Source: Nitrospirota bacterium (GTDB lineage: Bacteria > Nitrospirota > Thermodesulfovibrionia > Thermodesulfovibrionales > UBA6898). From it: DNA of 64,000 nucleotides. This document shows, one piece after another, positions 520 through 30,835 of the stretch (position 1 is the first letter of the stretch; each line of letters opens with the position of its first letter). The position numbers and the translations under genes are program-made. The stretch lies in contig JACRLO010000038.1 in NCBI GenBank assembly GCA_016235245.1, positions 1 to 64,000 on the forward strand, given 5' to 3'. The notes beneath the pieces are model-generated. The model did not search any database. It saw nothing but the letters and a program-made list of their open reading frames with translations, and was not told where the DNA came from.

Positions 520-3198
520 TTACGTTGCTGATACAGCTGCGGTAATGATCTGCACTGCACAGACCTTCAGTTCCGGTATCTTTACCTGGGGATCGAGGGC
601 ATCGTTGGTGAGTACATTGGCAGCAGCCTCCCGGTAATGCATAGGGATGAAAACTGTTCCTTCCGACACCCTTGGGGTTGTCCGCGCCTTAATGGCAATC
701 TCGCCTCTGCGTGACCGCACCTTGATAATATCTCCGTCGCTGATTCCAAGGTTCCTGCTGTCAAAGGGATTTATTTCCACATATGGTTCACCGGCATGAG
801 ACTCTATCGGCTCAACGCGCCGCGTCATGGAGCCGGAATGATACTGAAACAGATTGCGCCCTGTTGTCAGGACAAATGGATATTCTTTATCACAAACCTC
901 TGCAGGCGGCTGATATGAAACAGGCACAAAGGGAACTTTGCCCTTAGGGAATCCCTCTTTATAAAGATAGGGTGTGCCTGGGTGGTCTGTTGCAGGGCAG
1001 GGCCAGCAGAGACCGCGCTTTTCAAGTCGTGCATAGGATATGCCGGCGATTGCAGGCCATAGCTTACGGTATTCGTCAAATATTTTTTCGGATGATTTTT
1101 CCATGTCAAGGCCGAGCCGTTTCGAAATCTCTGCAATGATCCATAAATCATCCTTTGCCTCGCCAGGCGGATTGACTGCCTTGCGTATCCTCTGGACTCT
1201 CCGTTCAGTATTGGTGAAGGTGCCATTTTTTTCGAACGAACAGCCCGCCGGCAGCACTACCTCTGCAAGCTTTGCCGTATCAGTCAAAAAAATGTCCTGG
1301 ACTACCAGAAAATCGAGGCGTTCCAGCGCGTTGATCGTGTGATGCATGTTCGGGTCCGTGATGATCGGGTTTTCCCCCATGATGTACAGGGCCTTGAGGT
1401 TGCCTGCCGCAGCTTCATTCATCATCACGGTCGCCATCATGCCGACGTTGGGAGAAAGAGGAACTCCCCAGGCCTGTTCGAATTTTGTCCTGATCTCAGG
1501 ATCATCGACTTTCTGATATCCCGGATAGACATTTGGCATGCAGGCTGCATCGGAGGAGCCCTGAACATTATTCTGGCCCCGCAGCGGATTGATGCCGGTG
1601 AATTCCCTGCCGATATTGCCGGTAAGGGAAACAAGATTGGCAAGGGCTGTTACATTGTCAGTGCCACAGGTATGCTGCGTGATCCCCATGGTGTAGAAGA
1701 CCCCTGCTTTGCGCGATGCCCCATACACCCGGGCTGCCCTGATGATGTCATCCTTTGGGACGCCGGTGATCTTTTCGGCATAGTCAGGGGTAAAGGTCTC
1801 GATAGACTTTTTCCACGCAGCGAATCCTTCGGTTTTATCTTTTATAAATTCTTCGTTCTGAAGTCCTTCGCTCACGATAACATTTGCCATGCTGTTGAGG
1901 AGTGCAATATCAGAGCCCGGCCGTATCTGAAGGTGAATATCAGCGAACTTCACCATCGGGATTTTTCTCGGGTCTGCAACAATAATCTTTGCGCCGTTTC
2001 GATAGGCCTTGATCATGCGGTTTGCGATGACAGGGTGCGTTTCCTTGGTATTGGAGCCGATGATAAAGATCACCTCCATGCCTTCGATCTCCAGGATAGA
2101 GTTCGTCATTGCCCCTGAACCGAATATTTTGGCCAGACCGGCCACCGTGGGGGAGTGTCAAAGTCGGGCGCAGTGATCTACGTTATTGGTGCCGATGCCT
2201 GCCCTGATGAGTTTCTGGAATGCATAGTTCTCCTCATTGGTGCAGCGTGCAGAGGAAAGGCCTGCAATGGCATCAGCGCCGTGCTCTGCCTTTATTTCTG
2301 AGAGCCGCTTTGCAACGTGATCAAGGGCCTCGGGCCATGAGGCCTCTTCGAAGACGCCGTGCCTCTTTATCAGCGGCTGGGTCAGACGCTCCGGGCTGTT
2401 CACAAACCGGTATCCGAACCTCCCCTTGACGCAGAGCCAGCCTTCGTTCCATGTCGCCGCTTTTGCGGTAATTTTAAGGATCTCGTTATCTTTGACATGT
2501 GCCGTGATATTGCAGCCGGTGCCGCAATACGGGCAGACTGTATCCACTTCTGCCTGATGGTCTTTCCTGCCTTTATTCTTCCAGAGCCTGCCGGTGAGCG
2601 CCCCGGTAGGGCAGACGCTGACGCACTGGCCGCAGAACTCGCAGTCGAGATCCTGCTCATAGCTCGTACATATCTTGGAATTAAAACCGCGGTACCCAAA
2701 GTCGATTGCCTCAACACCCTGAATTTCATCACAGACCTTTACGCACCGGCCGCAGAGGATGCATTTTTCGAGGTCCCTTTCTATGAACGGGTTGCCGTCG
2801 CGCTTGGCATACACTCTTCTCTCTCCCTGATAGCGGTTCTCTCTGATGCCGTACTCATAGGCAAGATTCTGAAGTGTGCAGTCGCCTGCTTTTTCGCAGA
2901 TCATGCAGTCATTGGGGTGGTCAGAGAGGATAAGTTCCAGAACAGTCTTTCTCAATTCCTGCAGGTTTGGACTTGAGGTCGTAATCTCCATGCCATTGTT
3001 CACGACAGTGGTGCATGAGGTGACCGGTTTCGGCATGCCTTTTACTTCGACGATGCAGAGCCTGCAGCCGCCAAAGGGCGTAAGCTTGGGATGATGGCAG
3101 AGTGTCGGTATGGGAATGTTGAGGAGCTTTGCTGCCTGCAGTATCGTGGCAGAGTCAGCCACTTCAATCGTTTTGCCATCAATCGTGATCCTTGCCAT
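520..3198 (-). CDS. fdhA: Formate dehydrogenase alpha subunit, selenocysteine-containing (copy 1)
   Basis: Oxidises formate to CO2 (or the reverse) at a molybdenum/tungsten bis-pterin site. The reading frame runs through a TGA at 2158-2160 into a second open stretch, giving 892 residues with Sec at position 347. The context HCARL-Sec-HSPTVAGL is the FdhF/FdhA active-site motif, so this is recoding and not a broken gene. Domain order: NuoG-like [2Fe-2S] (about 1-80), His/Cys cluster HPNDCMICEKAGDC, two ferredoxin-type [4Fe-4S] motifs (CILCGRC, CEFCGQC), the CPYCGTGC cluster, then the molybdopterin catalytic and C-terminal pterin-binding domains. The start lies 4 bp after the upstream NuoF-like gene. 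It is last in a three-gene operon like fdsGBA of Rhodobacter. No fdhD or sel genes are seen in the window. Confidence 0.95.
2130..2160 (-). promoter_or_regulatory. Sec UGA codon and bacterial SECIS hairpin of fdhA copy 1
   Basis: UGA is at 2160-2158. Eighteen bases downstream TGGCC (2144-2140), loop GGTCT (2139-2135) and GGCCA (2134-2130) form a perfect 5-bp apical stem. The GGUCU loop and the spacing are those of the E. coli fdhF SECIS that binds SelB. Confidence 0.92.
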
Positions 3199-3202
3199 AT
3201 GC

Positions 3203-4984
3203 TTAATCCCTTCCTACAGACTTGAACTTGCACGCCTCGAAGCAGGCGCCGCATCTGACGCATTTTGCCGGGTCTATCCTGTGGGGCTGTTTCTTTTCTC
3301 CGGTGATCGCTCCTGCAGGGCATGCCCTGAGGCAGGCGCCGCACCCTTTGCATGCAGCTTCAATGACGCAATAGGTTATCAGGTCCTTGCAGTCCTTTGC
3401 AGGACATTTTTTATCCCGGATATGGGCTGCGAACTCATCCCTGAAATATTTCAGCGTGCTCAGCACGGGATTGGGGGCAGTCTGTCCGAGGCCGCAGAGC
3501 GCGGTGACCTTGATGCTGTTGCTCAGGGTCTCAAGCAGTTCAAGGTCGCTCTCCTTGCCTTGCCCTTTGGTTATCCGCTCCATGATCTCGAGAAGCCGCT
3601 TGGTGCCAATCCTGCATGGAACGCACTTGCCGCAGGATTCTTCCTGGGTGAACTGGATAAAGTACTTTGCCATATTCACCATGCAGTTGTCTTCGTCAAG
3701 GACTATCATTCCTCCTGAGCCGACGATTGACCCGACCCTGGCGAGCGATTCATAATCGACATTGATATCAAGCATATGAGCAGGAATGCAGCCGCCTGAG
3801 GGGCCGCCTGTCTGGACTGCCTTCAGCTTCTTGCCTCCTTCGATGCCTCCGCCGATATCCTCGATGATCTCCCGCAGCGTGATCCCCATCGGCACTTCGA
3901 TCAGTCCCGGGTTTTTGATCTTGCCGGTCAGGGCAAAGACCTTTGTCCCTCTCGAGCGTTCTGTTCCATGTGACGCGTACCACCGATAGCCCCTTCTCAT
4001 GATATAGGGAACATTGGCGAGGGTTTCGACGTTATTGATGACCGTAGGACGCTGCCACAATCCCTTGTTGACCGGGAACGGCGGCTTGGCTCTGGGCATG
4101 CCGCGCTGGCCTTCGATCGAGGCTATGAGCGCTGTCTCTTCGCCGCAGACAAATGCACCTGCACCGAGTTTGACCTGTATGTCAAAGTCAAAGGTTGTCC
4201 CAAAGATGTTCTTGCCGAGGAAGTGGCGTCGTCTTGCCCTGTCTATGGCGAGCCTCAGACGCTCGACTGCCAGGGGATATTCAGCCCGGATATAGACGTA
4301 CCCGTGATGGGCGCCGATGGCATAGGCCGCAATGATCATCCCCTCAATGACCGCATGGGGATTTCCCTCAATGACCGCGCGGTCCATAAATGCACCGGGG
4401 TCGCCCTCATCAGCATTGCAGACGATATATTTAATATCGCCGCGGGCCTTGCGTCCCAGTTCCCACTTGAGCCCGGTAGGGAATCCTGCGCCGCCGCGGC
4501 CTCTCAGTCCCGATGCCTTGATCTCCTCGATAACTTCATCCGGCAGCCACTCAGTCAGCACGTCACGGGCAGTCCCGTATCCTCCGACTGCATGATAGTC
4601 ATCAGGGTCCTCAGGATCAATCTTCCCGCAGTCAGATAGAACGATTTTGACCTGCTTGTGATGAAAGTTCTCGTAGTCTCTGCCGACCCGCCATTCGGCG
4701 ACAGGGGTTTTGCCGATAAGATGCTCCTGGACAATTCTCGGAACCATGTCGGGCTTGATGAACTGGTAGGTGGTTATTGTGCCGTCTGTCAGAACATCGA
4801 CAAGCACATCTTTGGCACAGAGCCCACGGCAGCCGACACGATGGGCCAAACAATGCTCTTTGACCACTGCCGGAAGCGCTGCGGCCTCAAGCTCAGTACG
4901 AAATGCCTGCAGGACTTCGGCACCCCCGGATGCCATACCGCCCGTACCCATGCAGACATTTATAACGGTCTTATTTTTCGTCAT
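3203..4984 (-). CDS. fdsB: NuoF-like diaphorase subunit of formate dehydrogenase (copy 1)
   Basis: Passes electrons between FdhA iron-sulfur clusters and NAD(P) through FMN. 593 residues: N-terminal thioredoxin-fold [2Fe-2S] region with VGCRGLCAKDVLVDV, then the NuoF core with the FMN motif GRGGAGFPTGLKW, the canonical CNADEGDPGAF...EGNPH segment and GAGAFVCGEETAL. The N3-type cluster ligands are CGKCVPC with a later CGLG. The C-terminus adds two [4Fe-4S] ferredoxin motifs (CKGCGACLRAC, CVRCGACFEAC), as in NADP-reducing hydrogenase and FdsB/HylB proteins. It overlaps the NuoE-like gene by 14 bp and is followed by fdhA after 4 bp. All key motifs are intact, so it probably is a working NAD(P)H site. 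Confidence 0.93.
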   Translation of the reverse strand: MTKNKTVINVCMGTGGMASGGAEVLQAFRTELEAAALPAVVKEHCLAHRVGCRGLCAKDVLVDVLTDGTITTYQFIKPDMVPRIVQEHLIGKTPVAEWRVGRDYENFHHKQVKIVLSDCGKIDPEDPDDYHAVGGYGTARDVLTEWLPDEVIEEIKASGLRGRGGAGFPTGLKWELGRKARGDIKYIVCNADEGDPGAFMDRAVIEGNPHAVIEGMIIAAYAIGAHHGYVYIRAEYPLAVERLRLAIDRARRRHFLGKNIFGTTFDFDIQVKLGAGAFVCGEETALIASIEGQRGMPRAKPPFPVNKGLWQRPTVINNVETLANVPYIMRRGYRWYASHGTERSRGTKVFALTGKIKNPGLIEVPMGITLREIIEDIGGGIEGGKKLKAVQTGGPSGGCIPAHMLDINVDYESLARVGSIVGSGGMIVLDEDNCMVNMAKYFIQFTQEESCGKCVPCRIGTKRLLEIMERITKGQGKESDLELLETLSNSIKVTALCGLGQTAPNPVLSTLKYFRDEFAAHIRDKKCPAKDCKDLITYCVIEAACKGCGACLRACPAGAITGEKKQPHRIDPAKCVRCGACFEACKFKSVGRD

Positions 4985-5444
4985 AGGAGGGGGCTTTCAG
5001 TGCACGGAGTTCCTTCAGGATCTTGTCTGTGACTGCTTTGCCGTGGACCTTTTTGTCCACAATGAGAACCGGTGCAATACTGCAGGCCCCAACGCAGTTT
5101 ACCTGCTCGAGGGTGAACTCACTGTCTTGTGTGGTGTCTTCGCCCGGTTCAAGTTTCAGCTCGAGCCTGAGGCTGTTGAGGATGCGGTCTGACCCGCGGA
5201 CATGACAGGCGGTTCCGCAACAGGCAGTTATCTTATGCCTGCCTGGCGGCCTCATGCGGAACTGGGCATAAAAGGTTACAACTCCGAAGAAGCGGCTTGG
5301 CGCAATGCCGAGGGTCTGGGAGAAGTAGTCTATTGCCTCTCTTGGTATGTACCCGAAGACTTCCTGCGTATCCTGCAGAAGAGAGACCACATTCCCCTCG
5401 TTCTGCCGGTATTGCTGCGCTATGGTTTTAAATGTTTCTATCAT
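4971..5444 (-). CDS. fdsG: NuoE-like [2Fe-2S] subunit of formate dehydrogenase (copy 1)
   Basis: 157-residue thioredoxin-fold [2Fe-2S] protein that partners the NuoF-like subunit. The ligands are visible as CCGTACH in the middle and NCVGACSIAP further on, the usual C-x4-C and C-x3-C pattern of NuoE/HoxE/FdsG. The N-terminal helical part has the family motif GYIPREAIDYFSQTLGI. It is first in the operon. The stop overlaps the start of the NuoF-like gene, implying coupled translation. The ATG at 5444 has only a weak ribosome site. A 17-bp palindrome lies 19 bp upstream. Confidence 0.92.
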   Translation of the reverse strand: MIETFKTIAQQYRQNEGNVVSLLQDTQEVFGYIPREAIDYFSQTLGIAPSRFFGVVTFYAQFRMRPPGRHKITACCGTACHVRGSDRILNSLRLELKLEPGEDTTQDSEFTLEQVNCVGACSIAPVLIVDKKVHGKAVTDKILKELRALKAPSYDEK

Positions 5445-6582: not shown

Positions 6583-9288
6583 TTATTCTCCTTCCCTGAC
6601 AGGTTCTACCCTGACCGCGGTGATCTTGAATCCGGGTGTTTTTGAAATCGAGTCGATACGGGTATCGCTCGTCAGCATGTTTACGGCAGCCTCGGCATAA
6701 TGCATGGGAATGAAGACAGTTCCCGGGCTTACCCGGTCCGTGATTCTGGCCTTTATCACAATACTCCCCTGTGAAGATGAGACTTTTGAGCGCCCGTTAT
6801 CGCCGATCGAGAGCCGTACTGCATCATCGGGATGTATTTCAATATACGCCTCTCCTGCATGGTTTTCAAGAGGCTGAACCCTGCGCGTCATGGAGCCGAA
6901 GTGATACTGAAAAAGATTTCTTCCCGTATTGAGGATGAAGGGATACTCCGGGTCAATCCGTTCTTTCTGCGTTTCAAAGGCTGCAGGGGTGAAGATTGCC
7001 CTTCCCCGGGGAAATCCGCCTTTATAGAGATACTCGGTTCCCGGATGGTTCTTGGTAGGGCAGGGCCACTGTATGCCCCGCGATTCGATCCTTGTATAGC
7101 TAATGCCCTCAAGCGCCGGCCAGAGACTGCCGAGTTCCTCAAACACGCCCTCAGGAGAACTGCAATTCATTTCATATCCCATTCTTCGGGAAAGTTCTGC
7201 AATGACCCAGGAATCGTCCCTTGCCTGCCCCGGTGCTGCGAGTGCCTTTCTTACCCGCTGCACCCTTCTTTCCGTATTGATAAAGGTGCCGTATTTTTCA
7301 GCAAAACAGGAAGAGGGGAAGACCACGTCTGCGAGCCTGCCTGTCTCTGTCAGAAAGATGTCCTGAACAATAAGCAGTTCGAGCGCCTCAAACCCTTTCT
7401 TTGTATGGCTGACATTGGCATCGCCAAGCACAGGGTTTTCACCCATCACATACGCAGCCCTGATGCTGCCTTCGATGGCCCTGTGCGGGATTTCGGAAGC
7501 GGCAATACCAGGTGCGGCTGAAAGCGGCCTTCCCCATGTTTCCTCAAACTTCTCCTGAATTTCGGAGATGCCGACCCTCTGATACCCGGGAAATACATTC
7601 GGCAGACAGCCTGCATCGCAGGCGCCCTGCACGTTGTTCTGGCCGCGCAGTGCATTAATACCCGTGAACTCCCTGCCGATATTTCCTGTCAGAAGTGCAA
7701 GGTTTGCGATCGCGTTTACATTTGCTGTCCCGTTTACATGCTGTGTAATACCCATCCCGTAATAGATTGCAGCCTTCCTTGATCCGCCATAGAGCCGTGC
7801 TGCCTCTATGATCTTTTCTCTGGGCACTCCGGTGATCTTTTCTCCGGCCTCAGGCGTGAACTCCTCTACGCTCTTCTTCCAGACGTCAAATTGACGGGTC
7901 TGGGCCTCGATGAAGTCGCTGTTGTGCAGCCCCTCTGCAAGAATAACATGGCTGATACTGTTGAGGAGCGCGATGTCAGTTCCGGGCCTCTGCCTGAGCC
8001 ATATCCCGGCAAAGCGGCACATGGCCAACTTCCGCGGGTCAGCGACAATGATCTTCGCTCCTCTTCTGTGCGCCCTGATCATGGCGTTTGCTATGACCGG
8101 GTGGGCTTCCTTGGTGTTTGACCCGATGATGAAGATCACTTCGTTGCCTTCGATTTCGCGGATCGAATTGGTCATTGCCCCAGAACCGAAGATGGTGGCC
8201 AGACTGGCCACCGTGGCGGCGTGTCAAAGCCGGGCGCAGTGGTCGACATTGTTCGTGCCGACTGCCGCGCGCATGAACTTCTGAAAAAGGTAATTCTCTT
8301 CAGTCGTGCAGCGCGCAGAAGAAAGCCCGGTAATGGCATCAGGACCATGCGCTTCTTTGATCTTTTTTAATCTATCTGCAGCATAATCCAGGGCCTCTTC
8401 CCATGACGCAGTCTGAAGCCTGCCGTCTTTTCTGATGAGCGGCTGCTTAAGTCTGTCAGGGCTTGATACAAAACTGTACCCGAACCTGCCTTTTACGCAG
8501 AGCAGCCCCTTGTTCACAACACTGTCCGGCCGTGAAGAGACCCTGATGATCTCATTGTTCTTCACGTGAAGCGTAATGCTGCAGCCGACGCCGCAGTACG
8601 AGCAGGTGGTGTCTACCTCCCGTATCTTCCAGTATCTTCCTTTGCCGATCCAGTCCCTGCCGACAAGGGCGCCGGTCGGACATGCCATAACGCACTGGCC
8701 GCAGAACTCGCAGTCGAGGTCCCGCTCAAACGGAGGGCATACCTTGGTGCCGAAGCCCTTGTATGCGAAATCGATCGCTCCTACGCCCTGGACCTCATCG
8801 CAGATCTTTACACACCGTCCGCAGAGGATGCACTTTTCCATGTCGCGCTCTATGAAACGGTTGCCGTCCTTCTTGTCATATATTCTTCGCTCCCCGCTGA
8901 AGAGGGGCTTCCTGATATTGTATGAATAGGCAAGCTCCTGCAGTTCACACTCGCCGGTCTTCTGACAGACCATGCAGTCGTAGGGGTGGTCGCTCAGGAT
9001 CAGGTCAATGGTGTCCCTCCTGAGGTCTTCAATGTAGGGAGAATTCGTGATGACTTCCATATCCTTTTCGACCAGGGTGGTGCAGGACGTTACCGGGGTC
9101 CCATTCACCTCAACGATGCAGACCCTGCATGCGCCAGACTGGCTGATCATCGGGTGGTTGCAGAGCGCCGGGATATAGATGCCGATCTCCTTTGCTGCCT
9201 CGAGAATCGTTCTGCCTTTGGTGACATCAACGACCTGGCTGTTGATCCTGAGCCTGACGGTTTTCTCTATTTTTCTGTTCATACTCAT
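6583..9288 (-). CDS. fdhA: Formate dehydrogenase alpha subunit, selenocysteine-containing (copy 2)
   Basis: A 901-residue paralogue of the first FdhA with Sec at residue 355, encoded by the TGA at 8224-8226 in the context HCARL-Sec-HAATVASL. Domain order is the same: NuoG-like [2Fe-2S], HPYDCMVCQKTGEC cluster, two ferredoxin-type [4Fe-4S] motifs (CILCGRC, CEFCGQC), CSYCGVGC cluster, molybdopterin catalytic domain and C-terminal pterin domain. It differs from copy 1 over most of its length, so the duplication is old, not a recent tandem copy. Its ATG overlaps the stop of the NuoF-like gene (ATGA). It is followed directly by the cyclic-nucleotide-fold and CBS genes, which copy 1 lacks. Confidence 0.94.
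8194..8226 (-). promoter_or_regulatory. Sec UGA codon and bacterial SECIS hairpin of fdhA copy 2
   Basis: UGA is at 8226-8224. GGTGGCC (8212-8206), loop AGTCT (8205-8201) and GGCCACC (8200-8194) give a perfect 7-bp stem with 18 bases from UGA to the loop, the same distance as in copy 1. The loop starts with A instead of G but keeps GUCU. Confidence 0.88.
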
Positions 9289-11051
9289 TGTTTTCTGATC
9301 GCCTTGAACTTGCAGGCCTTATAACAGGCCCCGCACTTTATGCAGGCAGCCGCATCGATCCGGTGCGACTTCTTCACCTCTCCGGAGACAGCCCCTGCAG
9401 GGCAGACCTTTTTGCAGAGCGTGCAGCCCTTGCATTTGTCTTCAAGAATAGAAAACGTTATCAGCGCGGTGCAGACGCCGGCAGGACATCTCTTCTCTTT
9501 AATATGCGCCAGGTACTCGTCGCGGAAATGGTTCAGCCCGGTGATGAACGGGTTCGAAGCGCTCCTGCCGAGGCCGCAGAGAGATGAGGTCTTCATCAGG
9601 CCGCTTAACCGTTCCAGTGTTGCAAGATCGTTATATTCAGCCATGCCTTCGGTGATCTTTGTGAGCAGTTCAAGCATTCTTTTTGTGCCGATCCTGCAGG
9701 GTGGACATTTGCCACAGGATTCCCTTTGCAGAAATTCCATAAAGAACTTTGTGATCGAGACGATGCAGTCGTCTTCGTTGAAGACAACCATGCCGCCCGA
9801 GCCGACGATGCTTCCGATCTTCGAGAGATTTTCGTAGTCAAGTCCAATGTCGAGCATCGCGGCAGGGATAAGGCCGCCTGAAGGGCCGCCGACCTGTACT
9901 GCCTTCAGTGCCCGCTCACCTTCCATGCCGCCGCCGATGCCATACACAATATCCCGGAACGGCATGCCCATTGGGATCTCGACCAGTCCGACATTCTTCA
10001 CCTTGCCCGACAGGGTAAAGACCTTCGTGCCGGTGCTCTCTTTTGTCCCGATGGACGAGAACCAGCGCGCACCTTTGCCGATGATAAGCGGAATGTTCGA
10101 AAAGGTCTCGGCATTATTGATAACCGTCGGTTTTCCCCAGAGCCCTTTCTGCACAGGGAAGGGCGGTCTGACCCTCGGCATGGCCCTCTTGCCCTCGATC
10201 GATTCCATCAGCGCGGTCTCCTCGCCGCAGATGAAGGCCTCTGTCCCGAAACTGAACTCAATATCAAAACTGAAATCCGTGCCGAAGATGTTCCTGCCGA
10301 TGAACCCCTTATCCTTTGCCTGGGCAATCGCACGCCTGAGCCGTTCAACAGACAGATGGTACCGCTCCCGTATATAGATGAACCCTTTTTCCGACCCGAT
10401 CGCGTAGCCGCCGATCAGGAGGCCTTCAATAATGGCGTGCGGGTTGCCTTCAGCCAGCGGCCTGTTCACCTCGCCCACATTGCAGATGATGTATTTCGTC
10501 TGATCAGGCTGGGCCTTGCAGATCTCCCATTTTGTGCCTGTCGAGAAGCCGCTTCCGCCTCTTCCCCTGAGCCCTGACTGGATGACCTTCTTTATCACTT
10601 CATCACGCCTCATCTTCGAGATCGCCTTTTGTGCGGCCCGGTAACCCTTCATGCCGAGGTAGTCATCAATGCTCTCCGGGTCTATCTCGCCGCACGGACC
10701 GAGTACAATCTTATGCTGTCTGCTCTGAAAGGATTCGTAATCTTCTTTGGTGAGCCATTCGGCAACAGGTGTCCCTTCAAGGATATGTTCGGTTACAATC
10801 CGCTCGACCATGGTCGGCTTGACAGACTGATAGGTAACCTTCTGGTTGTTCATGATGACGTCGACGAGCACGTCCTTGGAACAGAAGCCTCTGCAGCCGA
10901 CTCCCGTATAGCTGCACTTCTTATTGATCTGCGCTTCAATGCCGTTCAGTTGAATAAGCTTCTGAAAAATACTCAGAACGTCTGCGCCCCCGGATGCTTT
11001 TCCTGAAGTGCCGAGACAGACCTTTATCGCAATTGTTTGTGGTTCAGTCAT
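9285..11051 (-). CDS. fdsB: NuoF-like subunit with degenerate FMN/NADH site (copy 2)
   Basis: Same layout as copy 1: N-terminal [2Fe-2S] region (VGCRGFCSKDVLVDV), NuoF core, CGKCPPC...CGLG cluster and C-terminal double [4Fe-4S] ferredoxin (CKGCTLCKKVC, CIKCGACYKAC). The nucleotide site has changed. The canonical CNADEGDPGAFMDR segment is replaced by CNVGEVNRP with a net loss of six residues. GAGAxxCGEET has become GTEAFICGEET, and GRGGAGFPTG has become GRGGSGFSTG. All iron-sulfur ligands are kept and the gene is otherwise intact, so it is not decaying. The likely start is the ATG at 11051, which overlaps the NuoE-like stop. It may still carry electrons but probably does not use NADH in the normal way. 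Confidence 0.92.
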   Translation of the reverse strand: MTEPQTIAIKVCLGTSGKASGGADVLSIFQKLIQLNGIEAQINKKCSYTGVGCRGFCSKDVLVDVIMNNQKVTYQSVKPTMVERIVTEHILEGTPVAEWLTKEDYESFQSRQHKIVLGPCGEIDPESIDDYLGMKGYRAAQKAISKMRRDEVIKKVIQSGLRGRGGSGFSTGTKWEICKAQPDQTKYIICNVGEVNRPLAEGNPHAIIEGLLIGGYAIGSEKGFIYIRERYHLSVERLRRAIAQAKDKGFIGRNIFGTDFSFDIEFSFGTEAFICGEETALMESIEGKRAMPRVRPPFPVQKGLWGKPTVINNAETFSNIPLIIGKGARWFSSIGTKESTGTKVFTLSGKVKNVGLVEIPMGMPFRDIVYGIGGGMEGERALKAVQVGGPSGGLIPAAMLDIGLDYENLSKIGSIVGSGGMVVFNEDDCIVSITKFFMEFLQRESCGKCPPCRIGTKRMLELLTKITEGMAEYNDLATLERLSGLMKTSSLCGLGRSASNPFITGLNHFRDEYLAHIKEKRCPAGVCTALITFSILEDKCKGCTLCKKVCPAGAVSGEVKKSHRIDAAACIKCGACYKACKFKAIRKQ

Positions 11052-11535
11052 ATTCAAAGCCTGTATATTCGCCTTCCTGTTCGAAGCCTTTCACCAGTTT
11101 CACCACCTGTTCCGCATCCATGTTGCCATATACCTGATTATTCAGGATAGCAACAGGAGCAATGCTGCAGGCCCCGATACAGGTGGCATTCTGGACGGTA
11201 AAGGAGAGGTCCCCGGTGGTGTCTTCTCCTTTGCCGAGACTGAGCGCTGATCTGACTTTTTCAAGGATTTTATCCGCGCCTTTTATGTGGCAGGCAGCAC
11301 CGCAACATACGGTTATGGTGTTTTTGCCGGTCGGTTTAAGATGGAACTGGGAATAGAAGGTGGCTATGCCGAAGAATCTGCTTTCCGGGATATCGAGCTT
11401 TTTGGAAAACCAGCCGACTGCTTCCTCGGGAAGATAGCCGAATGCCGCCTCTGTCTGCTGAAGCAGCGTAATAAGGGTACCCTTCGACTTCATATGAGTG
11501 TCGAGAATGGCTTTGAGTTTATGTTCCATGATCAT
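11044..11535 (-). CDS. fdsG: NuoE-like [2Fe-2S] subunit of formate dehydrogenase (copy 2)
   Basis: About 163 residues, first gene of the second formate dehydrogenase module. [2Fe-2S] ligands appear as CCGAACH and TCIGACSIAP; the family motif GYLPEEAVGWFSKKLDI is present. The frame is open up to 11586, but a TATAAT sequence at 11592-11597 puts the likely RNA start near 11585. The ATG at 11535 (or 11529) is therefore the better start and also matches the N-terminus of copy 1. It overlaps the NuoF-like gene by a few bases. Confidence 0.9.
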   Translation of the reverse strand: MIMEHKLKAILDTHMKSKGTLITLLQQTEAAFGYLPEEAVGWFSKKLDIPESRFFGIATFYSQFHLKPTGKNTITVCCGAACHIKGADKILEKVRSALSLGKGEDTTGDLSFTVQNATCIGACSIAPVAILNNQVYGNMDAEQVVKLVKGFEQEGEYTGFEYD

Positions 11536-11718: not shown

Positions 11719-12996
11719 ATGAAAAAAATAGGCGGCGACATCAGTCTCATGCCCCTGCCGGACCTGCTGCAATGGGCAGAGACAAGCAAAAAATCAGGCA
11801 CGCTCTCTGTCACATTCCAGGGTGCGAGCAAGGCCTTCTATCTTCAGGACGGGAAAATGATCTTCATTTCGTCCCAGAAAGAAGGGGAGCGCCTTGGGGA
11901 ATTCTTTATGAAAAGCGGCCGTCTTGCGCCGGGACAGATTGAACAGGGTCTCCGGGAGAGCCAGCGTCTCGGGTGTCCGTTTACCGGGTATCTGATCGAT
12001 CAGGGGATCATTGATAAGCAAACACTGGAACAGACTCTCCAGAACCTTGCTGAAACAGCTTTTTCGGATACCCTGACCTGGGAGGGCGGTTTGTTTGAGT
12101 TTTCGGATACCATTCCACCGCTTATTCTTGACGGTCCGATTAAGCTCAATACTTCATTTGTCGTCTTTCAGTCGGTCAAAATATTTGATGAGACTCGCAG
12201 GGATAAGGTCGGAGAAGGACCGACGGTTGGCGATATCATAAAGCAGATCGCAAATAATATCGCGCAGGGAAACATTGAGCTCCCCCCCGTGCCTGATATC
12301 ATGACGAAGCTTAACGCTGCCATGACAAAGGACGATATCTCTGTCCATGACATTGTAAAAATTCTGATGGCCGACCAGATACTCACATCAAAAATCCTCC
12401 GGGTGGTAAATTCGGCCTTTTACAGCCCTTCACGCGAGATAACATCGCTTCAGCAGGCCATTATTTTTATGGGCCTTAAGTCGGTTCTGAGCATTGTGAC
12501 GGTGCATACCCTCAGCAGCATCAGCCCCGCCGCTGCAGACGAGGTGAAGGAGATCCTGCGGCATAGTCTGCTCTGCGCATTTGTTGCCAAAAAGATAGCC
12601 ATTGCCCTGCGGCTGGATCCTGAGGAGGCGTTTGTCTGCGGCCTGCTCCATGACATCGGCAAGACCGTTATCCTTAACCTGCTAACAGACAAGAAAGTGA
12701 CTGACGAGGTTAAGCGGGAGCTTCTCAGGGGATATCATCCGCATGTGGGATATATACTCGGCAGCAGATGGCATTTCTCGGAAGTGATCAAAAACACCAT
12801 CAAATATCACCATGCCCCGCAGGAAGCTCCTGCAAACAAGAAGCTGATCGAAACGGTCTATGTGGCCAATGTCATTGCCAACGGGCAGGATGTTATGGAT
12901 ACGGTGCATAACTGCAGCAACCTTGATTTTGACAAGATCAACGAGATCCTGAGCGACATTGACAATATCAAAGATTCAGTCATCGCGATCATCTGA
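11719..12996 (+). CDS. DUF4388-HDOD domain signalling protein
   Basis: About 425 residues if started at the ATG at 11719 (MKKIGGDISLM), which begins the DUF4388/PATAN domain. The frame extends upstream to 11629 but that part has no domain character. Residues about 5-150 are DUF4388 (LPDLLQWAETSKKSGTLSV, FYLQDGKMIFIS). Residues about 180-420 are HDOD (ELPPVPDIMTKLNAAM, LLHDIGKTVILNLL), a catalytically inert relative of HD phosphohydrolases common in regulators of motility and c-di-GMP signalling. The HD motif is present as HDIGK. There is no clear ribosome site. A -10-like TATACT at 11702-11707 suggests a very short leader. Confidence 0.85.
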   Translation: MKKIGGDISLMPLPDLLQWAETSKKSGTLSVTFQGASKAFYLQDGKMIFISSQKEGERLGEFFMKSGRLAPGQIEQGLRESQRLGCPFTGYLIDQGIIDKQTLEQTLQNLAETAFSDTLTWEGGLFEFSDTIPPLILDGPIKLNTSFVVFQSVKIFDETRRDKVGEGPTVGDIIKQIANNIAQGNIELPPVPDIMTKLNAAMTKDDISVHDIVKILMADQILTSKILRVVNSAFYSPSREITSLQQAIIFMGLKSVLSIVTVHTLSSISPAAADEVKEILRHSLLCAFVAKKIAIALRLDPEEAFVCGLLHDIGKTVILNLLTDKKVTDEVKRELLRGYHPHVGYILGSRWHFSEVIKNTIKYHHAPQEAPANKKLIETVYVANVIANGQDVMDTVHNCSNLDFDKINEILSDIDNIKDSVIAII

Positions 12997-14038: not shown

Positions 14039-14755
14039 CTATCTGCGTTCTGTATCCACCTGTTCGGTCAAAAGCCGCCTGTAGTAGAAGTTTTGGCCAT
14101 ACAGTACGCTGACAGGATTATGACCGGTGACGCGGTCCTTGGTGATCAGGGTAGTGACCGGTGCATCAGAGTATTTGGTGAAGAGCATGTCATGGCCGAC
14201 GCAGAGGCCGACGATGATATTCATATCTGTCCCTGCCTCGTTCAGGAGCCGTGCCTGGGCAATGGGGTTACAGGCAGGTTCGAAGGTCGATGGCCGCACT
14301 TTGTCCTCTTCCGTAATGCCGAGTTCGAGTTTGTCAATGCTCCCGCTTTTGCAGCAGACTGAAAGCGGCGTAAAGCCCTGGGCGGAAAGGATGCGGCTGA
14401 GGCGCTCAGTTTCATCGAGCAGACCGATGCAGGTGGCGATGCCTATTTTCTTGTATCCCATGAGTTTTGCGAAGGCAATGGTATCTTCGACCCGGGTCCA
14501 GCGGGCGCGTATCGCGGTGCTTCCTGGCTGATGTTCGTAGCAGAGGCCTTCGACCCGGGTAGCGATCTGGGCCATCTTTGCATCGGTGCTGTCCCCTTTG
14601 TAACGATTGAAGCTCTCCTGAATGAGGTCCATATGTTCCTGCGAGGGACAGTACCCCGGCTTCGATGGTTTTTCGTCGGGATTGGCGCTCCAACAGTTCG
14701 TCTTCCCGTTTTTCTGCCAGACAGCGCCGCAGCTGCTGCAACTGAATTTTGTCAT
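14039..14755 (-). CDS. DUF1847 family cysteine-rich metal-binding protein
   Basis: 238 residues. The N-terminus CSSCGAVWQ...TNCW and the central blocks GLCYEHQPGS, RVEDTIAFAKLMGYKKIGIATCIGLLDE, VCCKSGSIDK, ACNPIAQARLLNEAGTDMNIIVGLCVGHDMLF are those of DUF1847 proteins. They are found in anaerobes and are thought to bind a metal or cluster through the conserved cysteines; the reaction is unknown. The ribosome site is GGAG 9 nt before the ATG. It is followed on the same strand by the 55-residue Cys-rich gene. Confidence 0.88.
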   Translation of the reverse strand: MTKFSCSSCGAVWQKNGKTNCWSANPDEKPSKPGYCPSQEHMDLIQESFNRYKGDSTDAKMAQIATRVEGLCYEHQPGSTAIRARWTRVEDTIAFAKLMGYKKIGIATCIGLLDETERLSRILSAQGFTPLSVCCKSGSIDKLELGITEEDKVRPSTFEPACNPIAQARLLNEAGTDMNIIVGLCVGHDMLFTKYSDAPVTTLITKDRVTGHNPVSVLYGQNFYYRRLLTEQVDTERR

Positions 14756-14810: not shown

Positions 14811-16595
14811 CTACGTTTTTGCGGACCGCTGCTTAATGACTTCAACCCCTTCGTTTGCTCTTTTATGGGCAGGGTAAATCCGCAGCGCTTTATCGAAGAG
14901 TCCCTTTGCACGAACAGGACAGTTAAGTGCGAGGTATATATGGCCTGTCTCCGCAAGGATGTCGGGGATATTCGGGGAGATCTCAAGCGCCCTGTTCAGC
15001 GACTGCAGCGCTTCTTTTTGTCTGCCGGTTTTTGCAAAACATAATCCGTAATAATAATGGTATTCAGAGGGGGCACTGTCGAAATAAATAGCAGTTGCAA
15101 AGAGGTGAGCAGCCTCCTGAAATTTTCCCTTCCTGAATTCTGACTTCCCCTCGTCGAAGTTGCCGCGGGCAATATCCGACTTTGCAGTCTCTCCGGTTCC
15201 GGTATCTGCAGCCGGCCTGAAGCGTTCTCCCTGCGGTGTCTCCTCTGCCGCAGATACGGGTGTCCTTTCAGGGGGCGTTACAACATCGGGGACTCTTATC
15301 GGGATGGCCGAATCATACTTCCTTCTCTTTTCATTATCCTTCAGCGTCAGGTATGCCCTGGTGACACTGTTAAAAATAGTAAGCAGTTTCCCTTTGACGT
15401 CCTCGGGCAGGCTGAAATGCCGGTCAGGATGATATTCCCTGGCAGCCCTGTAATAGGCCTTCTTTATCTCTTCTGCCGAAGCGCTTGTATCTATGCCGAG
15501 AATTTCATAATGATTCAACTGCCGGAATTTCAAATCCGTTTCATCGATCTTGTCGATAAGGCCTCCGAAGCTGTCGTCGACAGGGCTGCAGACTTCATCG
15601 GGCGCTACGTCCTGGGGAGGGTCTTCCGTGTCTTTTATCTCGAGAATCCTTGCCTCGACAAGGGCATAGAGGCTCTTCATGGCCTGTATTTTATCCATCG
15701 AAGAGAGCTTGATAATATCCTTTACTGTTGTCCTGCCGTTGACAAAGGAAAGAAGCATTCTGTCGCTGCTCTCCAGCCGAATCTCCTGGAAAAGATTGAG
15801 TGGCGTAGGCGAAAAATCGACCGTTCTGTCAAGAAGATACCTGGCCACCAGCTCCTCATCAGCCGTTTTTTTCAGCTCCCGGTATATTATGTCCGCAGCA
15901 GATATCCTCAGGGTCACGGCCATTCCGGACGGAAGCGGTCCTTCCCGGAATTCAATATCAGCCTGCTTTAATGCAAAGAGGCTTTCGATGATATTGTTTG
16001 CCTGAATCGCGAGCACGGTGGTCAGGTCGGCAGGCTTCAGGAAGCCGGAATCAACGAGAATGAATACATAGCGCTCGTTCGTCTTTTTCCTGCGTTCGTC
16101 TGCCTGGTCATACTGCGTTTGTGTAATGTTACCCTCTTTGAGAAGGATATCACCTAATCGGTGCTCATCGAGATTAGAAGTAGCAAATATCATATTGCCA
16201 TTTTTTATATGGATCTCTCTGATTGCCCTGCCATGCCGGATCTGAAGGACGCCGGTCTTCAGCGTCCTCTGGAGACCGATGAGAATGTCCGAGAGTCTGT
16301 AAAGCGAGAGATTGCCGTTAAGCGGTCCCAGTCTGTCGATGCCTGCCCTGACTGTCTGTGCATGCTGAGATGCCCATATCACCTCCCCCTGCTGTCTGAT
16401 GCCGAGTTCAGGGATATCGAGGTCTAGTATGTCCCCGCGGTTCAGAAGAGGGGAGTTTTCGATGATTACGCCGACACTGTTGAGCGAGTAGTCTACCGTC
16501 CTTGCAGCATAGGAGATCCCTCCATGTCTGAGCGTGAAAGCAGCGCCTGAAGAGTATCTTCTGAAAACTCTTATATCTATGTCTGTATTTTTCAT
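14811..16595 (-). CDS. PilZ - DUF4388 - J-domain - TPR fusion protein
   Basis: 594 residues from the ATG at 16595. The frame opens at 16640, but a TTGACT box at 16647-16652 makes that upstream start unlikely. Order: PilZ-like c-di-GMP domain at about 8-100 (RVFRRYSSG and DYSLNSVG, the second motif spaced more widely than the usual DxSxxG); DUF4388 at about 105-250 (SDILIGLQRTLKTGVLQI, IHIKNGNMIFATS); a J domain at about 375-440 with intact HPD (REYHPDRH); a low-complexity linker; and three TPR repeats at about 490-590. J domains stimulate Hsp70 ATPase. The fusion suggests a c-di-GMP-responsive co-chaperone or scaffold. It sits 55 bp upstream of the DUF1847 gene. Confidence 0.85.
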   Translation of the reverse strand: MKNTDIDIRVFRRYSSGAAFTLRHGGISYAARTVDYSLNSVGVIIENSPLLNRGDILDLDIPELGIRQQGEVIWASQHAQTVRAGIDRLGPLNGNLSLYRLSDILIGLQRTLKTGVLQIRHGRAIREIHIKNGNMIFATSNLDEHRLGDILLKEGNITQTQYDQADERRKKTNERYVFILVDSGFLKPADLTTVLAIQANNIIESLFALKQADIEFREGPLPSGMAVTLRISAADIIYRELKKTADEELVARYLLDRTVDFSPTPLNLFQEIRLESSDRMLLSFVNGRTTVKDIIKLSSMDKIQAMKSLYALVEARILEIKDTEDPPQDVAPDEVCSPVDDSFGGLIDKIDETDLKFRQLNHYEILGIDTSASAEEIKKAYYRAAREYHPDRHFSLPEDVKGKLLTIFNSVTRAYLTLKDNEKRRKYDSAIPIRVPDVVTPPERTPVSAAEETPQGERFRPAADTGTGETAKSDIARGNFDEGKSEFRKGKFQEAAHLFATAIYFDSAPSEYHYYYGLCFAKTGRQKEALQSLNRALEISPNIPDILAETGHIYLALNCPVRAKGLFDKALRIYPAHKRANEGVEVIKQRSAKT

Positions 16596-29425: not shown

Positions 29426-30020
29426 CGTCCTCATAATGGTATCAGCATGTGCGCCCAAAAAGGCTGAAATGCCTGTCGTTGAACAGCGGAGCATTGCGGT
29501 TGTCCTTGCAGAGCGCAGATTAATTGAACGGATTCATGCAGCCATGTCAGTGGTCTTCGAAAAGACCGACTCTGAGACGCATGGCGATGCAGTGATCGAC
29601 ATTGCGCAGGACGGCGACCTGCATATGAAGGTCTACACGCTCGGCATACTTGTCATGGACCTCACCGCTAAGAATGGTCTGGTAAGGAGCACGCCAAAGC
29701 TCGACAAAAATAAGACCGCTATCCTTACCCAGGGGTTGAGGGACAGCCTCTTCTGGTGGGATAGCAAAGACTTTGCGATTCAGGAGGAGAATGATCATCT
29801 CATCCTGCAGAATGCAGCCAGAGAGGTCGTTCTTGACCGAAAGACCTTGCTTCCCCAAAAGCAGAGGATTTTTTTTGATGACGGCAAACAGTTGACGGTT
29901 TTCTATAGCAATCCTGCGCAGACAAAGGGTGTCTGGTACCAATCGAAGATGAGGATAGAACTGTCCCGTTATGCGGTTACGCTGAGCGTCCGGGAGATCT
30001 CTTTTGACGGGAGGAGTTAG
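29397..30020 (+). CDS. Predicted outer-membrane lipoprotein, LolB/LolA-like possibility
   Basis: About 207 residues; the ATG at 29397 (or GTG at 29394) lies inside the radA 3' end, with GGAG at 29381. Signal peptide MNFLKLFFVSVLIM and lipobox VSAC are clear. The mature part is beta-rich, with repeated amphipathic strands (GDAVIDIAQDGDLHMKVYTLG, MRIELSRYAVTLSVREISF) that resemble the half-barrel of LolA/LolB-type carriers. That fold assignment is an impression, not a motif match. Its last bases overlap the end of the ATPase gene on the other strand. Confidence 0.72.
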   Translation: MNFLKLFFVSVLIMVSACAPKKAEMPVVEQRSIAVVLAERRLIERIHAAMSVVFEKTDSETHGDAVIDIAQDGDLHMKVYTLGILVMDLTAKNGLVRSTPKLDKNKTAILTQGLRDSLFWWDSKDFAIQEENDHLILQNAAREVVLDRKTLLPQKQRIFFDDGKQLTVFYSNPAQTKGVWYQSKMRIELSRYAVTLSVREISFDGRS

Positions 30021-30832
30021 CTCTCGAGGCCGAGGTCGATTGCTACGGTTTTTATGATCGAATCGTCTACGGCCGTATTTTTAAACAGAAACCCTTCCAG
30101 AAGCGCATTATCGCAGATCGTGTTAATCAGTCTGGGAGTACCGTTAGAATACTTGTAGATCATGGAGATGGCCCTGTCAGTGAAGATCTCACGGTCAGCT
30201 CCTGCCACTTTCATCCTGTGCTGGATATAATCCTTCGTGTCAGACTCTGAATAGGCGTTCAGCCTTATCCTGATGGCTACCCTCTGTTTGAGGGGTTCAT
30301 CGAGGGAGAGAACCTGGTCCAGGTCAGGCAGGCCGAAGAAAACAAAGTTCACCATCTTGCCTTCAGCGGTCTCCATATTCAGGAGGCCCCTGAACTCTTC
30401 CATGATCTCGGTGGAGTTGAGCATCTGCACTTCATCCATAAGCACGACTGCCCTTTTGCCCTGCTCGTTGATTTCGTGCAGCCTGCGGTATATTGCGCTC
30501 AATAGTTCGATTTTGCTGTCAGGCACATTTTTGACGCCAAGCTGAATGGCGAACTTCTTGAACAGCCACTCCGAACTGACTGACGAGTGAATAATTACGA
30601 GAAGCGCAGCCTCATAGTGTTCCTCATCCAGTTCCTCAAGGATTTTGCGTGCCAGGGTGGTCTTGCCTGCGCCGATGTTGCCGATGACGACAGCGAGACC
30701 TTTTCTCGTGTCAATGGCGTATTTCAGCTTAATCAGAGCCTCTGCCTGCTGAGGGCTGTTATAGTAGAACCTGCTGTCTACCACATTTGAAAACGGATGC
30801 TCCGAGAGCTTAAAATATTCAAGATAGTCCAT
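30017..30832 (-). CDS. ExeA/GspA-like AAA ATPase
   Basis: 271 residues. N-terminal YLEYFKLSEHPFSNVVDSRFYY is the hallmark of ExeA-type ATPases linked to type II secretion and polysaccharide export. Walker A GNIGAGKTTLARK (about 47-59) and Walker B AVVLMDEVQML follow; sensor-like segments GLPDLDQVLSLDEPLKQRV and GTPRLINTICDNALL match the family. It lacks the C-terminal peptidoglycan-binding or TM domain of full ExeA. It sits 3 bp after the large TPR gene on the same strand, so they are likely to work together. The 3' end overlaps the lipoprotein gene by 4 bp. Confidence 0.88.
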   Translation of the reverse strand: MDYLEYFKLSEHPFSNVVDSRFYYNSPQQAEALIKLKYAIDTRKGLAVVIGNIGAGKTTLARKILEELDEEHYEAALLVIIHSSVSSEWLFKKFAIQLGVKNVPDSKIELLSAIYRRLHEINEQGKRAVVLMDEVQMLNSTEIMEEFRGLLNMETAEGKMVNFVFFGLPDLDQVLSLDEPLKQRVAIRIRLNAYSESDTKDYIQHRMKVAGADREIFTDRAISMIYKYSNGTPRLINTICDNALLEGFLFKNTAVDDSIIKTVAIDLGLES

Positions 30833-30835
30833 GTA

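Follow-up and report, generated by a model that had tools for sequence, protein, structure and literature searches.

Domain organization of the 594-residue protein

Why would a bacterium place a PilZ domain and a J domain on a single polypeptide? This question is raised by an open reading frame on the minus strand of the 64,000-nucleotide window, which is the whole stretch of Nitrospirota DNA that was analyzed. The frame at 14811-16595 is open and encodes 594 amino acids counted from the ATG at 16595, and an in-frame TTG is also present 15 codons upstream of this ATG. The features of the gene are as follows.

14811..16595, minus strand: whole gene, encoding PilZ, DUF4388/PATAN (with an MshEN-like insert), winged-helix-like, J and TPR domains in 594 residues
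16326..16577, minus strand: predicted PilZ domain, residues 7-90
16557..16571, minus strand: RxxxR c-di-GMP motif, R9-R13
16476..16493, minus strand: DxSxxG motif, D35-Y-S37-L-N-S40
15900..16325, minus strand: DUF4388 (PATAN-like) domain, residues 91-232
15972..16160, minus strand: MshEN/GSPII-like four-helix insertion in DUF4388, residues 146-208
15621..15863, minus strand: winged-helix-like domain, residues about 245-325
15306..15524, minus strand: J domain, residues 358-430
15423..15431, minus strand: HPD motif, residues 389-391
15192..15293, minus strand: linker between the J domain and TPR array, residues 435-468
14814..15191, minus strand: TPR array of seven helices, residues 469-594

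The initial annotation listed PilZ, DUF4388, J and TPR domains in this order with an intact HPD motif, and Pfam and structure matches bear this out. The four-domain parts list named its domains correctly but missed two parts, the MshEN-like insert and the winged-helix-like domain. An architecture that arose by chance is excluded because a full-length relative with 50% identity and dozens of relatives with 30-45% identity keep the domain order. AlphaFold2 modeled the whole protein with a mean pLDDT of 88.5 and the N-terminal 332 residues alone with a pLDDT of 90.4 and a pTM of 0.86; the N-terminal half was folded separately because a Foldseek search with the full model gave TPR matches alone among those listed. 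The protein is proposed to act as a specialized J-domain partner of DnaK and is apparently soluble, a reading with about an even chance of being right.

The predicted PilZ domain and its c-di-GMP motifs

The first domain of the protein is, on the basis of its predicted structure, a PilZ domain. Residues 9-80 matched the Pfam family PF07238 in hmmscan with an E-value of 2.7e-4 and a score of 21.7 bits, short of the cut-off of 22.5, and the same domain scored 24.8 bits, above the cut-off, in a whole-genome search with the PilZ model. Given this second score and the PilZ matches in 42 of 46 aligned relatives (best E-value, 3e-12), the profile evidence favors the PilZ assignment that had been made from the sequence. 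When the N-terminal half was folded alone, PilZ structures accounted for nearly all of the top ~25 matches in a PDB search. The model adopts the β-barrel fold of PF07238 receptors and resembles c-di-GMP-bound structures: residues 9-98 match VCA0042 (2rde) with a Z score of 11.1 and an rmsd of 1.9 over 80 residues, and BcsA (4p00), PA0012 (8u0i) and YcgR (5y6f) gave Z scores of 11.0, 10.7 and 9.4, respectively. The rmsd from VCA0042 and BcsA ranges from 1.5 to 1.9 over about 80 residues.

Does the domain keep the residues that contact c-di-GMP in PilZ receptors? The RxxxR motif is invariant in all 46 aligned relatives. In the second motif of the same alignment, D35 is found in 43 relatives, S37 in all 46 and glycine at position 40 in 44. 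The 594-residue protein retains D35 and S37 of the [DN]xSxxG signature and carries serine at position 40, a replacement confined, within this alignment, to this protein and one ortholog (L009). The D-x-S motif had been described as unusually spaced; the family alignment corrects this to the normal RxxxR...DxSxxG spacing with a Gly40-to-Ser replacement. In the larger set of named loci, RxxxR and [DN]xS are present in all 48 PilZ-bearing members with a readable first motif, and the final glycine is present in 46 of them. The mean conservation of the PilZ domain is 0.45, and values of about 0.85 or above are reached only at R9, F11, R13, Y14, D35, S37, position 40, W74 and G85, which are mostly c-di-GMP motif residues.

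The replacement of Gly40, together with the degenerate MshEN-like site described below, speaks against c-di-GMP sensing by the 594-residue protein itself. It is conceivable, albeit rather improbable, that its PilZ barrel does not respond to c-di-GMP and instead provides a protein-protein interface, making the protein a J-domain adaptor whose targeting is fixed and leaving c-di-GMP control only to the paralogs. The presence of the same serine in L009 and the hmmscan score slightly under the Pfam cut-off are consistent with such an adaptor, as are two precedents: PlpA is a PilZ protein that does not bind the ligand with its motif intact (PMC8316039), and the PilZ-DnaK protein CsdK1 lacks half of its motif yet is redundant with CsdK2 (PMC10313047). 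However, R9, R13, D35 and S37 are all retained at about 50% identity to the ortholog, and a loss of ligand binding should erode these positions.

An MshEN-like insertion in the DUF4388 domain

The PilZ domain is followed by a DUF4388 domain, which we take, in line with InterPro, to be the same as the PATAN domain. PF14332 was matched over residues 94-231 (E = 6e-15; 55.7 bits against a cut-off of 25) and in all 46 relatives, and the predicted model contains a helical insertion at residues 146-208. In Synechocystis, the PilB motor is a binding partner of PATAN domains (PMC7690835, PMC10519157). PATAN-REC regulators of this cyanobacterium, among them PixE and PixG, resemble the 594-residue protein in their PATAN-type domain, which has likewise been described with a helical insertion. 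Unlike the 594-residue protein, they contain a receiver domain and lack PilZ, J and TPR domains, and the contact with PilB is theirs (PMC7690835, PMC10519157).

What does the insertion resemble? It matched NCBIfam NF053729 with an E-value of 9e-9 and 35 bits, slightly below the cut-off of 38, and this family was matched in 41 of the 46 relatives. A profile of the insertion retrieved PilF (7e-17), MshE (1e-7) and PilB (1e-5) from the PDB, and Foldseek superimposed the predicted insertion on MshE (5htl) with an rmsd of 1.0 over 53 columns at 40% identity. The insertion thus shares the four-helix fold and a recognizable motif with the N-terminal MshEN and GSPII domains of MshE, PilB and PilF (PMC5013675). 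It differs from them in that it is embedded in DUF4388 rather than placed ahead of an ATPase and in having a degenerate guanine pocket beside a largely retained one. A second example is found three genes away in the window, where a DUF4388-HDOD protein (11719-12996, plus strand) has a DUF4388 domain with a degenerate MshEN-like insertion (NF053729, E = 4e-5). The helical insertion of DUF4388/PATAN domains such as these two appears to be homologous to MshEN/GSPII domains.

The homology raises the question of whether the insertion, instead of or beside the PilZ domain, senses c-di-GMP. The pockets were compared using the residues that contact c-di-GMP in MshE (PMC5013675). Guanine pocket 2 (R/K, G, L, V/L, Q and L) is retained in most members, which, along with the homology to the N-terminal domains of MshE, PilF and PilB, is what a sensory or dual-sensing insertion would predict. 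However, nearly all members have a degenerate guanine pocket 1, with L25 replaced by Y, Q32 by M or L, and L39 by Q. The 594-residue protein keeps five of the six pocket-2 residues and has lost the pocket-2 glycine as well; its first motif lacks the equivalents of L25, L29 and Q32, and its second lacks RLG. The two tandem 24-residue motifs (RLGxx..G....LxxxLxxQ) that define MshEN/GSPII domains are thus not found in this insertion, although the fold is homologous. Given also that one c-di-GMP molecule is bound by both MshEN halves (PMC5013675), we consider a sensory role of the insertion unlikely. The three paralogs of this genome hinted at a complementary loss of PilZ and MshEN motifs, an idea that was discarded when a wider alignment was found to keep PilZ and pocket 2 together.

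Winged-helix-like domain, J domain and TPR array

The winged-helix-like domain was recognized from the secondary structure of the AlphaFold2 model, structural matches with Z scores of about 8 and weak Pfam matches to HTH_9 and TFIIE_alpha. Its fold would suit a transcription-type or scaffold-type regulator, in which this domain binds nucleic acid or protein and the J domain only hands the regulator to DnaK for turnover. Such a role is very unlikely: the domain displays no demonstrated nucleic-acid-binding feature, and its matches include GATOR and KICSTOR subunits (Z about 8). Winged helices often serve in protein-protein roles. Furthermore, the conservation of the HPD motif and the TPR array is better explained by client handling.

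The DnaJ family PF00226 covers residues 361-428 with an E-value of 1.4e-18. The HPD motif is invariant in the alignment of 46 relatives, two wider alignments show it in all 85 and in 90 of 91 readable members, respectively, and the protein has a J domain with HPD of the Hsp40 class C type. The J domain is connected to the TPR array by a linker that is predicted to be disordered (pLDDT under 50) and is not conserved (0.06). TPR_2 and TPR_16 were matched at about residues 480-542 with E-values down to 7e-14, and the array has a structural match with a Z score of about 20.

Distribution and history of the family

The protein belongs to a real, conserved and uncharacterized family. Its own genome encodes three copies, the 594-residue protein and two relatives of similar layout, of which one (contig C39) lacks PilZ and the other (contig C4) has PilZ and lacks the insertion. 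A class-wide search at a threshold of E<=1e-20 found the family in 130 of 230 genomes, a single genome having as many as 8 matches, and 153 of the 396 genomes in a phylum-wide search gave matches. In the matches listed from outside the class, the proteins start at the DUF4388 part and are devoid of PilZ. Members with PilZ were encountered in Thermodesulfovibrionia alone, and the PilZ-less relative spans Nitrospirota. All named loci are from Nitrospirota, including Thermodesulfovibrionales, Manganitrophus and Nitrospiria metagenome-assembled genomes. In a scan of genome contigs with one J-domain pattern, in which the best 80 were kept, every named group was Nitrospirota, and a wider distribution is possible; a plasmid search for relatives outside the phylum gave a DUF4388 protein of Thermomicrobium alone.

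A tree built from the shared part has a branch with 100/100 support that separates the main PilZ-less family from a clade that holds all PilZ-bearing members, which have expanded into paralogs. The simplest reading of these sequences is that PilZ was fused once onto an older DUF4388-J-TPR protein and that the product was then duplicated. Cases of apparent PilZ loss within the PilZ-bearing clade were dismissed, as at least 7 of 8 are artefacts of trimming reading frames to the first methionine, with the PilZ residues of these loci covered by tblastn.

Gene neighborhood and co-occurrence

The neighbors of 79 named loci were clustered and those of the nearest orthologs were inspected, and no conserved partner was found beside the PilZ-bearing genes. 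In the same clustering, the sole recurrent neighbors of the PilZ-less form were housekeeping genes. In many Nitrospirota genomes the PilZ-less relative (for example, L184, 9544-11013, minus strand) lies near polyprenyl synthetase, AMMECR1-like and Nramp-like genes. This arrangement suggests that the PilZ-less DUF4388-J-TPR locus is old and vertically inherited. A cheD gene (L177, 6988-7608, plus strand) adjoins the closest ortholog of the 594-residue protein and is absent beside the other members inspected. In the window, a DUF1847 gene (14039-14755, minus strand) is located 55 bp downstream of the gene for the 594-residue protein on the same strand, and it does not accompany the nearest orthologs among the neighbors inspected.

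GGDEF genes lie near 8 of the 79 loci, near-duplicates included, which is approximately twice a rough background estimate and is not clearly above background. GGDEF is present in 230 of 230 genomes of the class and PilB in 228 of 230, whether the family is present or not. Co-occurrence with PilB or GGDEF was therefore set aside as a functional clue, since both are essentially universal in the class, and that with PilB speaks neither for nor against a pilus target. The genome of the 594-residue protein does provide the partners that a c-di-GMP-responsive co-chaperone would need, namely one canonical DnaK and at least 15 GGDEF domains, along with about 18 other PilZ matches.

A candidate c-di-GMP-responsive co-chaperone

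How might these domains work together? With moderate confidence, and on comparative grounds, we propose that the 594-residue protein recruits DnaK under the control of c-di-GMP to a target bound by its DUF4388 and TPR modules, with ligand binding, allostery, DnaK stimulation and the target all being inferred. The N-terminal PilZ barrel would bind c-di-GMP, and binding would change how the adjoining unit of DUF4388/PATAN, MshEN-like and winged-helix parts, or its partner, is packed or exposed. This unit and the C-terminal TPR array would hold one or more target proteins, and the J domain, flexibly linked to the TPR array, would cause DnaK to hydrolyze ATP on the bound client. The chosen target would consequently be remodeled or stabilized in concert with c-di-GMP.

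A c-di-GMP-responsive co-chaperone is suggested chiefly by the PilZ ligand site and the HPD motif, which are among the most strictly maintained features of the family. The initial annotation had proposed a c-di-GMP-dependent J-domain protein that acts perhaps on motility or envelope complexes. The first part gains comparative support from the near-invariant PilZ ligand residues and HPD motif, which are the best-conserved positions of their respective domains, but the link to motility or the envelope finds none, given that there are no conserved gene neighbors and that co-occurrence with type IV pili does not discriminate. An ATPase of type IV pili or of the type II secretion kind, or a different PATAN partner, may be the target. 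Pilus and secretion ATPases are a reasonable first guess because PATAN contacts PilB in cyanobacteria and the insertion resembles the N-terminal domain of PilB, and by this analogy type IV pilus ATPases are a plausible target of the family.

Bacterial c-di-GMP acts on enzymes, transcription factors, riboswitches and motors. If our proposal is true, direct control of Hsp70 recruitment via a J protein would add proteostasis to these outputs and supply a bacterial case in which a small signaling molecule gates a J protein, and the cell may use c-di-GMP to set where or when Hsp70 goes. More tentatively, the whole family could be an expanded one of second-messenger-gated Hsp70 co-chaperones, in which c-di-GMP, sensed by PilZ and perhaps also by a half-site MshEN, selects the target of DnaK and the paralogs within one cell serve different targets and thresholds. 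The family is large, has PilZ-less members that serve as an internal control and includes paralogs whose motifs have changed to different degrees, which makes the gating idea directly testable.

Comparison with known PilZ-chaperone fusions

The initial annotation knew of no described example of such a protein, which is too strong a statement: proteins that combine PilZ with DnaK or DnaJ are on record for Myxococcus xanthus (PMC8316039), and there has been work on two PilZ-DnaK proteins (PMC10313047). These two, CsdK1 and CsdK2, are chaperones that stabilize the PilZ protein CdbS; one of them has a full c-di-GMP motif, and CsdK1 lacks half of it (PMC10313047). The PilZ motif of CsdK2 is dispensable for client contact, and the role of c-di-GMP in CsdK1 and CsdK2 function is open (PMC10313047). 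As in CsdK1 and CsdK2, PilZ in the 594-residue protein is fused N-terminally to a component of the Hsp70 machine. In contrast to both, in which PilZ resides on Hsp70 itself, the 594-residue protein carries PilZ on a J-domain co-chaperone along with DUF4388, MshEN-like and TPR parts.

According to a survey of the PilZ proteins of M. xanthus, DnaK or DnaJ domains occur in four of them, and the assays employed revealed no change in motility, EPS or development upon their deletion (PMC8316039). The PilZ-DnaJ proteins of this organism share with the 594-residue protein the combination of PilZ and J domains on one polypeptide and have been characterized by deletion screens alone. No paper on a PilZ-DUF4388-J-TPR protein was found in the literature searched. 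PilZ-chaperone fusions are thus already known, and the PilZ-DUF4388-J-TPR family is an uncharacterized variant.

Other features of the window

Two successive clusters on the minus strand (520-5444 and 6583-11535) are alike in gene order and protein starts, with NuoE/NuoF/NuoG-like proteins plus an oxidoreductase-like subunit, and apparently represent a duplicated cluster for an NAD-linked dehydrogenase, whose large subunit seems in both copies to be divided between two adjacent open reading frames. At 30017-33745 on the minus strand, an AAA_22 (ExeA-like) ATPase gene adjoins that of a 969-residue TPR protein. A flagellar cluster on the plus strand (43926-64000) extends past the window edge and, as read from sequence starts, includes fliF, fliG, fliI, hook genes, flhB, flhA, flhF and a flhG-like gene.
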